From: Patescibacteria group bacterium
GTDB lineage: Bacteria; Patescibacteriota; Minisyncoccia; Phycocordibacterales; Phycocordibacteraceae
Reading direction: 5' to 3'
Assembly (NCBI GenBank): GCA_028866135.1
Contig: JAGWIS010000003.1
Location: 1-43,654 of the forward strand
Length of the DNA: 43,654 bases
The notes under the pieces are model-generated. The model worked only from the letters and a program-made list of their open reading frames with translations, did no database searches and was not told where the DNA came from. Positions 6,374 to 40,376 of the stretch are shown one piece after another (within the stretch, counting starts at the first letter, position 1; every line of letters starts with the position of its first letter). Position numbers and translations under genes: made by a program.

Positions 6374-6510
6374 CCCATACACCAGCTTCGGCATCATGGT
6401 CTTTGCGCCGAGTGCCGCAGACCGTATTCGCGTGCCCGCAGGAAATATCAGGTGCCCGGGGAGAAACGCGCGAGACCACGCGCGGCGCAATGCCGAAGCT
6501 GGTGTCTGGG
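6374..6510. repeat. 21-bp inverted repeat (1 mismatch) spanning the pilC-pilin spacer
   Basis: CCCATACACCAGCTTCGGCAT (6374-6394) vs ATGCCGAAGCTGGTGTCTGGG (6490-6510); the right arm begins at the pilin ATG. Confidence 0.85.
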
Positions 6511-9495: not shown

Positions 9496-9496
9496 T

Positions 9497-9618
9497 GCGT
9501 CCCGTTAGAAATCACGAACACGTCTCTTGGAGTAATCGCGAAACAATATGGAACGCAGTAACCAAATAAACTATGACGATCCTTATGCGACGGCCGTATT
9601 CTATTTCTAACGGGATGC
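9497..9618. repeat. 16-bp inverted repeat (one G-U) bridging tpiA stop and pgk start
   Basis: GCGTCCCGTTAGAAAT (9497-9512) vs ATTTCTAACGGGATGC (9603-9618). Confidence 0.85.
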
Positions 9619-10778
9619 GCACGATTCGCGACATCCCAGTATTCGAAAATATTCCGATACTGGTGCGGGCGGCATTGAATGTTCCTGTCGCAAACGGGGC
9701 CGTCGTCAATGACTACCGCTTGCGCCGCGCACTGCCGACCATCCGCTTTCTTGCCGAGCGGGGCGCCAAAGTCGTTCTCATAAGCCATATCGGGGAGCAG
9801 GGGACCGAGACGCTCGAGCCGGTCGCCCGAGCGCTTGGGAAGCTTATTTCCGGCGTTTCGTTCTTTGGCGAAACGATCGGGGAGCGAGCGCGCGGCACCG
9901 TGCGAGAGCTCGCGCCGAGAAACGTTCTCGTTCTCGAAAATCTTCGGCGCAATAAAGGCGAACGCACGAATGATCGCGCGTTCGCGAAGGAGCTTGCGGC
10001 GCTCGCGGATGTGTTTGTGGAGGATTCGTTTGATACGTGCCACCGCCCTCACGCCTCCATCGTCGGCGTCCCCGAGCTCCTGCCGAGCTATGTCGGACTT
10101 TTGCTTGAGGAGGAGGTGCGCGAACTCTCACAGGCGCTTACGCCGAAGCATCCGGCGTTTGCCGTCATTGGCGGCGCGAAGTTCAGCACCAAAGAGGCGG
10201 TGCTCACGACGCTTTTGGATGCGTACGATCAGGTATTCGTCGGCGGTGCCCTCGCAAATGATTTCTTCAAGGCATCCGGGCGGGAAGTGGGGAAGTCGCT
10301 CGTCTCTGATTTTGATCCGGAGCGCATGAAAAAGGTCCTTTCGAATCCTAAGCTCGTCCTCCCCGTCGATTCGCTCGTCATTCCCGCTAGCGCCGTCGGG
10401 TCGCTTGATGCGCGCGCGCAAGCGCGCGTCGCCTCTCCCGGAGAGGTGCGGAGTGATGAAGTCATCCTCGATCACGGCCCGGGTACTTCCGCGCTTCTCG
10501 CAAGTCTTGCGGCGAAAGCGAAGACCATCCTCTGGAACGGTCCTTTGGGAAATTATGAAAACGGATTCATCGATGCGACTGACGCGCTCGCGCGCGCCGT
10601 CGCCGCCTCGGGCGCGCACTCGGTCATCGGCGGCGGCGACACGGTCGCCGCGATAGAGAATCTCGGCATCCTCTCGCGCTTCTCGTTCGTCTCAACCGGC
10701 GGCGGCGCGATGCTCGACTTCCTCGCAAAGGGTACTTTGCCTGGTATTGATGTCCTTGGAAATCACCCGAGCGCTTGA
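9615..10778 (+). CDS. pgk: phosphoglycerate kinase
   Basis: LNVPVANGAVVNDYRLRRALPTIRFL, VVLISHIG, FAVIGGAKFSTKEAVL, LWNGPLGNYE, VIGGGDTVAAIE, STGGGAMLDFLAKGTLPGIDVL. Confidence 0.93.
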   Translation: MRTIRDIPVFENIPILVRAALNVPVANGAVVNDYRLRRALPTIRFLAERGAKVVLISHIGEQGTETLEPVARALGKLISGVSFFGETIGERARGTVRELAPRNVLVLENLRRNKGERTNDRAFAKELAALADVFVEDSFDTCHRPHASIVGVPELLPSYVGLLLEEEVRELSQALTPKHPAFAVIGGAKFSTKEAVLTTLLDAYDQVFVGGALANDFFKASGREVGKSLVSDFDPERMKKVLSNPKLVLPVDSLVIPASAVGSLDARAQARVASPGEVRSDEVILDHGPGTSALLASLAAKAKTILWNGPLGNYENGFIDATDALARAVAASGAHSVIGGGDTVAAIENLGILSRFSFVSTGGGAMLDFLAKGTLPGIDVLGNHPSA

Positions 10779-11192: not shown

Positions 11193-12992
11193 GTGCACAT
11201 GTTTCCGCTCCACGATCCTTTGCACGAGACGGTGCGCGAAGAACTTTCTTTCTACGATGACCTTACCGCCGCGCTTCTTGCGCGCCGCGGCGTCCTGAGC
11301 AGGGAGGAGGCGGAAAAATTTCTCAATCCCTCATACGATTTGCATCTCCATGATCCGTTCCTAATGGTAGACATGGAGAAGGCGGCGCGGCGATTGTCTC
11401 ACGCGATCCTTTCCGGAGAGCGCATCGGCGTGTGGAGCGATTACGATTGCGATGGCATACCGGGCGGAGTGCTCATGCACGATTTCCTCGCGAAAGCGGG
11501 CGCAAATTTCGAAAATTATATTCCGCACCGGCACGAAGAAGGTTATGGGATGAATGTTGCCGGCATCGAGAAGCTCGCGAAAAGCGGAGTGAAGCTCATC
11601 GTGACGGTCGACTCCGGCATCACGGACGTCGAGCCCATCGCTCGAGCGAACGAGCTCGGCATGGAAGTCATCGTCACGGATCACCACCTGCCTGCCGAAA
11701 AACTGCCGGACGCGTTTGCAATCCTCAACCCGAACGCTCGTCCCGTTAGAGGCAAGATGCCGGAGGCATCTGGCTCGCCTTCGGCGAGCGCCTCTAACGG
11801 GACGAGAGCGGAGGAAACGTATCCGTTTAAGAGTCTCTGCGGCTCGGGCGTCGCGTGGAAGCTCGTGTGCGCGACGCTTGCGGCGGCGCCCGCGCTTCGC
11901 GAGCGGGTGCCTGAGGGATGGGAAAAGTGGCTTCTCGACATGGTGGGGCTCGCGACCATCGCCGACATGGTCCCGCTCACGGGCGAAAACCGCGTTCTTG
12001 CCGCTTACGGCCTCCTCGTGATGCGCAAATCCCCGCGCATCGGGCTGCAGAAACTCTGCCGAGGGATGCGCGTTGATCAGCGCAAGCTCACCGAAGATGA
12101 CGTCGGATTCATGATCGCGCCGCGCATAAACGCGGCAAGCCGCATGGGGTCGGCGGAGGACGCCTTCCGCCTCTTCACGACTGACTCTGAAAGCGAGGCG
12201 GATTTGCTTGCGAAGAAGCTGGAGAAAATGAATCGCACGCGCAAAGCGGAGGCGGGCACCATCACGCGAGCGGTGCATGCGCGACTGAAAGAGAAGGGCG
12301 CGGTCAGAAGCGTCATCGCGCTCGGAGATCCGGAGTGGCGCCCGGCGCTCCTCGGGCTCGTCGCCAATACCATTGCGGATGAGTACGAGCGGCCCGTATT
12401 CCTTTGGGGCAGGGAGGGGAATATGCGCCTCAAGGGATCGGTGCGAAGCGGCGGCGGGGTGCACATCCTCGAGCTCATGCGCGCCACGGAAAACACCTTC
12501 ACCGAATTCGGCGGGCACAGAGCGGCGGGCGGTTTCACCGTCGAAGACACTGCGGTGTTCTTTCTTGAAGACCGCCTGGTCGAAGCACACGGGAAAATGC
12601 AAAAAGAAGAAGCGGATGATGATTTACTGATGCGCGCTGACGCCGTGGTCGCACCGGAAGAGATAACTGATGCTTTTCTTACAAAAATCGAACGTCTTGC
12701 CCCATTTGGCATGGAGAACCCAAAACCCGTGTTTCTTTTGCGAGAGGTTTTCGTGCGCCGGATTTCACATTTCGGGAAAGGAGAGGAGCACTTGAAATTG
12801 AATGTGTGTTCAAGAGAGGAAAGCGAATCCGGCATCGATGCCGTTACGTTTTTCGCGAAAGGCCCGCTTGCGCGCGTCGCGGAGACGCTTGCCGCAAATA
12901 GTCGCGCACATCTGCTCGCGCACATCGAGCGCGACACGTTTTCGCGCGAGAATCCGGTGCGTCTGCGACTTCTCGATCTCAGAGTTGCATGA
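11193..12992 (+). CDS. recJ: single-stranded-DNA-specific exonuclease RecJ (DHH family) carrying an in-frame palindromic insert
   Basis: GVWSDYDCDGIPGGVL, VTVDSGITD, VIVTDHHLP, LNPNA...YPFKSLCGSGVAWKL, GGHRAAGGFTV. GTG 11193 or ATG 11199 start. Confidence 0.92.
   Translation: MHMFPLHDPLHETVREELSFYDDLTAALLARRGVLSREEAEKFLNPSYDLHLHDPFLMVDMEKAARRLSHAILSGERIGVWSDYDCDGIPGGVLMHDFLAKAGANFENYIPHRHEEGYGMNVAGIEKLAKSGVKLIVTVDSGITDVEPIARANELGMEVIVTDHHLPAEKLPDAFAILNPNARPVRGKMPEASGSPSASASNGTRAEETYPFKSLCGSGVAWKLVCATLAAAPALRERVPEGWEKWLLDMVGLATIADMVPLTGENRVLAAYGLLVMRKSPRIGLQKLCRGMRVDQRKLTEDDVGFMIAPRINAASRMGSAEDAFRLFTTDSESEADLLAKKLEKMNRTRKAEAGTITRAVHARLKEKGAVRSVIALGDPEWRPALLGLVANTIADEYERPVFLWGREGNMRLKGSVRSGGGVHILELMRATENTFTEFGGHRAAGGFTVEDTAVFFLEDRLVEAHGKMQKEEADDDLLMRADAVVAPEEITDAFLTKIERLAPFGMENPKPVFLLREVFVRRISHFGKGEEHLKLNVCSREESESGIDAVTFFAKGPLARVAETLAANSRAHLLAHIERDTFSRENPVRLRLLDLRVA
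11737..11806. repeat. 70-bp palindromic cassette inside recJ: 17-bp perfect outer stem with two 7-bp inner hairpins
   Basis: CTCGTCCCGTTAGAGGC (11737-11753)/GCCTCTAACGGGACGAG (11790-11806); inner AGATGCC-GGA-GGCATCT (11755-11771) and GCTCGCC-TTC-GGCGAGC (11773-11789). Confidence 0.95.
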
Positions 12993-13000
12993 CGCTTCTC

Positions 13001-13043
13001 CCCAACAAGGGTGCCCCTTGTAGCAAGGGGCACCCTTGTTGGG
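13001..13043. repeat. perfect 20-bp hairpin with TAG loop between recJ and RNase H
   Basis: CCCAACAAGGGTGCCCCTTG-TAG-CAAGGGGCACCCTTGTTGGG. Confidence 0.95.
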
Positions 13044-40168: not shown

Positions 40169-40241
40169 TGCGCCCGGATGGGATCGAACCATCGACCAAC
40201 GGATTAAAAGTCCGCTGCTCTACCAACTGAGCTACGGGCGC
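40169..40241 (-). tRNA. tRNA-Lys (anticodon TTT), CCA not encoded
   Basis: Minus strand GCGCCCGTAGCTCAGTTGGTAGAGCAGCGGACTTTTAATCCGTTGGTCGATGGTTCGATCCCATCCGGGCGCA; full cloverleaf. Confidence 0.96.
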
Positions 40242-40376
40242 GAAGTGAGGAAGAAAGAATGAGCGTCTTCACTCATTCTTTCTCTCCGAACGAGCGCTCG
40301 TATCGAGTCTGCGAAGATACGGGCGCGAATCGGCTTCTCCTCATTTCAGTAATCTACTCTTTTTAACGTCTTTTTC

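Follow-up and report, generated by a model that had tools for sequence, protein, structure and literature searches.

The recJ gene of a Patescibacteria group bacterium carries a palindrome that is read in frame with the rest of the gene, and the question raised by this locus is what kind of sequence this is and how it came to lie within a housekeeping gene. The analysis covered the window (the whole 43,654-nt stretch of DNA), the source genome, and the genomes of the same genus and order; the genomes compared are fragmented assemblies.

The palindrome in recJ

A preliminary description, made from the letters alone, had proposed an in-frame palindromic cassette consisting of a stem and two 7-bp hairpins, and each of these elements is borne out. 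The recJ locus features the following:

11193..12992, + strand: recJ, the host gene, open across the insert (ORF, domains, structure model)
11737..11740, + strand: CTCG, left flank, where the 4-bp target duplication would lie (placed by family comparison)
11741..11802, + strand: 62-nt double-hairpin element, Y-CCCGTTAGAGGC-A-hairpin 1-G-hairpin 2-GCCTCTAACGGG-R (inverted repeat and fold; ends from comparison of 160 elements; missing from 27/30 recJ genes)
11741..11753, + strand: left terminal inverted repeat, TCCCGTTAGAGGC (arm pairing; family end YCCCGTTAGA conserved)
11755..11771, + strand: hairpin 1, AGATGCC-GGA-GGCATCT, 7 bp with a 3-nt loop (fold; covariation)
11773..11789, + strand: hairpin 2, GCTCGCC-TTC-GGCGAGC, 7 bp with a 3-nt loop (fold; covariation)
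11790..11802, − strand: right terminal inverted repeat, GCCTCTAACGGGA on the + strand (arm pairing; family-conserved end)
11803..11806, + strand: CGAG, right flank, where the 4-bp target duplication would lie (placed by family comparison)

An inverted-repeat search of the window shows the 17-bp arms (11737-11753 / 11790-11806) to be 100% complementary; the 86 nt from 11730 to 11815 have a minimum free energy of −61.1 kcal/mol whereas shuffled versions average −32.9 (sd 3.75; z −7.5) and 0 of 200 reach that value. The palindrome contains single-base linkers at A11754 and G11772, and the recJ frame translates the region as NARPVRGKMPEASGSPSASASNGTRAEETYPF. The element proper is put at 62 nt by comparison with other copies, the outer CTCG and CGAG being flanking DNA; these flanks are an inverted pair and not a direct repeat, which could be the product of a template-switch correction that extended the palindrome. 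The sole match above the gathering score in an Rfam scan of the window is one tRNA, and the palindrome matches no structured RNA family there. In the 0.69-Mb genome there are nine occurrences of the 10-mer TCCCGTTAGA, most of them arranged as inverted pairs; the reversed pattern is absent.

The host ORF contains DHH, DHHA1 and RecJ_OB domains, and the modelled protein matches RecJ structures. The cassette adds 22 residues in a loop; AlphaFold2 gives insert residues 184-208 a pLDDT below 50 with no secondary structure (mean for the protein 83), which fits a tolerated disordered loop, low pLDDT being by itself no proof of exposure. Empty sites with intact flanks (NPNAR-xDETY or similar, 6-9 nt) are present in 27 of 30 recJ genes of the genus, and relative to an empty site the insertion adds 66 nt (75 vs 9 nt). 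The site is filled in the source genome and in genomes G002 and G004, with 75, 75 and 63 nt respectively; the hairpin arms vary among these three copies yet stay largely paired, with one hairpin 2 pair broken in G004 by reading of the sequence. Their common position suggests that the three are likely descendants of one insertion.

Double-hairpin copies in other genes and genomes

A pattern search combined with a covariance model, the latter built from 18 copies, finds about 35 double-hairpin copies in 12 of the 59 genus genomes; G004 has about 15 double hairpins, and 13 other genomes of the order contain weaker matches, some partial. The architecture is fixed: a 10-bp core stem, A, a 7-bp hairpin, G and a second 7-bp hairpin. 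Across the alignment of 18 copies, pair cells are paired in 94% of cases (79% when shuffled) and 66 are double-changed (18.7 when shuffled); double changes are found at every pair of hairpin 1 and at six of the seven pairs of hairpin 2. The pattern used to pick copies fixed the outer 7 bp of the stem, which makes that helix uninformative, and left the inner hairpins unconstrained.

The copies lie on either strand, at unrelated positions and in unrelated genes, and about 14 are in open frames within protein genes. The in-frame hosts are recJ (three species), ligA, gatB, rnhB, an SBP_bac_5 protein, a methyltransferase resembling prmC, a DUF4147/MOFRL protein (glycerate-kinase-like; two species), an FtsQ-like protein (two species) and a pilin-like protein; all except the last two are supported by Pfam. 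Because the element sits at different places in different species within the DUF4147/MOFRL and FtsQ-like genes, the orthologues serve as reciprocal empty sites, which make the insertion history readable. The main forms are 62 and 65 nt long; with the 4-bp duplication these become 66 and 69 nt, and therefore both keep the reading frame. Two of the element's own frames (PVRDK..VSNG and PLETx..LSLTG) are open, and the third contains TAG.

The preliminary description had compared the cassette to Rickettsia palindromic elements as an in-frame insertion; the empty recJ relatives, the palindromes found in other protein genes, and the disordered loop predicted for the insert all support this. An ancestral RecJ loop, with codons that form a palindrome by chance, would agree with an insert at the same position in the recJ of three species; it is given practically no weight, as the relatives with empty sites do not carry the peptide and the same DNA element is present in unrelated genes. 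A further reading, in which the hairpins are kept as host RNA or DNA structures (for example in mRNA control or as protein-binding sites) with mobility secondary, draws on the strong covariation of the inner hairpins. This is considered very improbable: the copies lie on either strand, at unrelated positions in unrelated genes, most genus genomes have no double hairpins, and other size classes have only their ends in common, with unstructured interiors; template-switch correction of palindromes could also produce covariation without host function.

Target duplications, start codons and GIY-YIG genes

The ends of the double hairpins belong to a wider family, YCCCGTTAGA...TCTAACGGGR, for which 160 distinct elements were compared. 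The terminal Y...R pair is T..A or C..G in 157 of these, and exact 4-bp direct repeats flank 109 (12.7 in shuffles), while direct repeats of 3, 5 or 6 bp flank at most four elements each; away from start codons the duplications are always YNNR (16 sites). These alignments establish, at the level of sequence, that insertion of the family makes a precise 4-bp target duplication with the consensus YNNR. A 6-bp duplication was ruled out, as 4 bp fits when the terminal Y..R pair is taken as part of the element; a fold common to the other size classes was also rejected, the 111-123-nt members sharing subterminal motifs only and the 76-83-nt members sharing their ends only. The scan was limited to 330 nt, and no transposase gene is present in any family element read, the longest of which is 282 nt. 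Genomes G000 and G004 also contain short forms with ends GCTTG|CCCCGTTAGA...TCTAATGGGGT (e.g. L213, L209, L215, L220), possibly a further subfamily.

Start codons are a second type of insertion site. The sequence TCTAACGGGRTG has 125 occurrences in 20 of the 59 genus genomes (one in the reversed control), and at the level of the order start-codon sites are present in 106 of 297 genomes, representing 75 of 165 genera, while control matches are few. Most of the 104 loci read have a matching left end 33-277 nt upstream; these loci were picked by an RTG pattern, so that the proportion of insertions falling in start codons cannot be read from them. In such copies the duplication includes the start-codon TG (ATGAA|T...A|TGAA). 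The window holds one example:

9496..9499, + strand: TGCG, left copy of the 4-bp target duplication (sequence)
9500..9615, + strand: 116-nt second member of the family, TCCCGTTAGAAAT...ATTTCTAACGGGA, within the start codon of pgk (ends, duplication, empty relatives)
9616..9619, + strand: TGCG, right copy of the 4-bp target duplication, inside the restored pgk start (sequence)

The last base of this element is the A of the pgk ATG. Of 30 relatives, 26 have an empty tpiA-pgk junction, with the two genes −1 to 11 nt apart (37 nt in one); in four, among them the source genome, the junction is filled (122-133 nt). Upstream of pgk in genome G049 (locus L319) the junction is occupied by another hairpin (GACCAGCACCAAATC...GATTTGATGCTGGTC); because a different hairpin fills the same junction, it may be a hot spot.

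Longer members of the family contain a gene. In the 277-nt members the sole gene inside encodes a 94-aa GIY-YIG protein (PF01541, E 5e-17); the same ends thus bound GIY-YIG coding elements and the recJ cassette, which is itself geneless. Starting at the ATG of the host gene, about a dozen coding copies from several genera read MNPVRD.. through the left repeat and finish with ..LKRFLSLTG in the right one; their TGA stop codon overlaps the restored host ATG. Of 59 GIY-YIG loci, 43 lie between inverted repeats that exceed the 99% shuffle-control level; the repeat types include GTTAGA, GTTAAA, GTACGA, GTGARA and others, and follow the nuclease tree (7 changes compared to 21.9 shuffled). Elements are found in 20 of 28 genomes of the order sample with the nuclease and in 26 of 87 without (p 1e-4, uncorrected for kinship, and assuming that the 117 genomes scanned for the nuclease are the first of the 297 scanned for elements); within the genus the figures are 6 of 6 and 12 of 51 (p 5e-4, uncorrected for kinship, and leaving out two genomes whose sole site is the nuclease element itself). 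In the source genome and in G004, every GIY-YIG gene has ends of another type (CCCTGTTAAAT, CCCCGTGAGA).

The preliminary description was thus correct as to the palindrome and the copies within ORFs, and had not seen the terminal inverted repeats, the 4-bp duplication, the GIY-YIG genes with the same ends or the many members in start codons.

A separate GIY-YIG gene, with an internal stop, lies at 720-1003 of locus L217 (G000:C30) and is bounded by CCCCGTGAGATAA repeats; the locus adjoins AGGAAAGTCCG, which resembles the start of RNase P RNA. RNase P RNA as the target of a related GIY-YIG element was considered on the basis of this similar flank and rejected, there being no Rfam match at the gathering score.

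Mobilisation and comparison with known elements

The reading preferred here, at a probability of roughly three in four, is that the recJ cassette is a non-autonomous, MITE-like transposable element, for which the GIY-YIG nuclease would be the mover. The nuclease, perhaps together with host repair enzymes, would cut the YNNR target, the element ends or both, and would act in trans to move coding and geneless elements alike; its substrate may be the palindrome folded into a junction. Copies would persist in gene-dense genomes by sparing genes, either in frame in loops or in start codons, and the start-codon strategy would explain the persistence of mobile DNA in very compact genomes. With somewhat less confidence, the whole family is proposed to be a new class of DNA transposon in small-genome bacteria, probably of the candidate phyla, with a GIY-YIG nuclease of about 94 aa as its sole enzyme, inverted-repeat ends and 4-bp YNNR duplications; it would target start codons, borrowing the host initiation codon and returning translation through an ATGA overlap, and would mobilise geneless palindromes, some having a length that allows in-frame translation.

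Mobilisation by the GIY-YIG nuclease is what we infer, and two observations stand against it: the source genome and G004 have no GIY-YIG gene with matching ends, despite the double hairpins of G004, and the flanks of the recJ copy are inverted rather than directly repeated. A nuclease carried as cargo would show the same association with elements. The most serious competitor, albeit an unlikely one, is a conventional transposase, unseen or lost, that moves the elements, with the GIY-YIG gene captured between the ends; it would accommodate the many elements in the two genomes without a matching nuclease, and 4-bp duplications are usual for some DDE transposases. Against it, the elements read contain no transposase gene within the size limits given above, and GIY-YIG is the only gene inside these ends in many genera, the end types following its tree.

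The cassette itself is MITE-like in being short and geneless, with 13-bp terminal inverted repeats, dispersed copies with empty sites, and ends common to a longer coding element, which may be autonomous; a fixed 4-bp target duplication is also typical of the family, although the recJ copy is without a direct one. It differs from MITEs in that its coding relatives possess a GIY-YIG nuclease rather than a recognised transposase, and in that in-frame and start-codon insertion is the rule among the copies read; the GIY-YIG element behind the cassette may be of a new kind. The coding relatives also share with I-TevI-type homing endonucleases a GIY-YIG catalytic domain (PF01541) within a mobile element. 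The I-TevI cut motif is a C-to-G spaced one, which resembles YNNR; homing places a copy of an element at a single allelic site through repair, whereas the cassette family has inverted repeats, target duplications and many unrelated sites. The GTTAGA/TCTAAC boxes suggested integron attC sites, whose boxes face the opposite way; these were set aside on their general architecture.

Rickettsia palindromic elements are the nearest precedent for in-frame palindromes; they are about 150 bp long and lie in frame in unrelated housekeeping genes, adding peptide (PMC10969869). The cassette family is likewise dispersed and in frame in unrelated protein genes to which it adds peptide, and would be a second, apparently independent case of palindromes adding peptides to housekeeping proteins. 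It is set apart, by description, through its length (62/65 nt), its occurrence in other bacteria, its inverted-repeat ends, 4-bp duplication and start-codon preference, and its GIY-YIG coding relatives.

The rRNA genes of candidate-phyla bacteria contain GIY-YIG ORFs in non-intron insertions, seemingly outside a homing context, and many short insertions in these genes remain unexplained (PMC11270868). The low site conservation and the geneless short insertions alongside resemble the present family; the differences, compared by description, are the location in rRNA genes and the lack of terminal repeats in that account. The family may account for both the unexplained short and the GIY-YIG-encoding rRNA-gene insertions.

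REP elements and BIMEs are also short dispersed palindromes, sometimes paired hairpins, and REP elements carry a GTAG or CGTC tag at one palindrome end (PMC3733652); the conserved YCCCGTTAGA ends contain no such tag, the cassette copies lie inside coding genes, the stem sequences vary freely, and no RAYT gene is seen in family elements. TIGR arrays (PMC12045711) were ruled out, as the hairpins here are dispersed and do not form arrays. The literature searched, which did not extend to preprints or most subscription papers, yielded no paper on GIY-YIG elements with terminal repeats or start-codon insertion. To our knowledge, no transposon class combines inverted repeats with a GIY-YIG nuclease as the only enzyme; the family is large and apparently undescribed in small-genome bacteria.

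The window contains further inverted repeats: a perfect 20-bp repeat at 13001-13043 (CCCAACAAGGGTGCCCCTTG, 3-nt loop) lies immediately downstream of the recJ stop codon, where the next ORF begins, with ends that differ from the CCCGTTAGA family, and the repeat finder reports other long ones at 6374-6394 / 6490-6510 and at 40233-40302.
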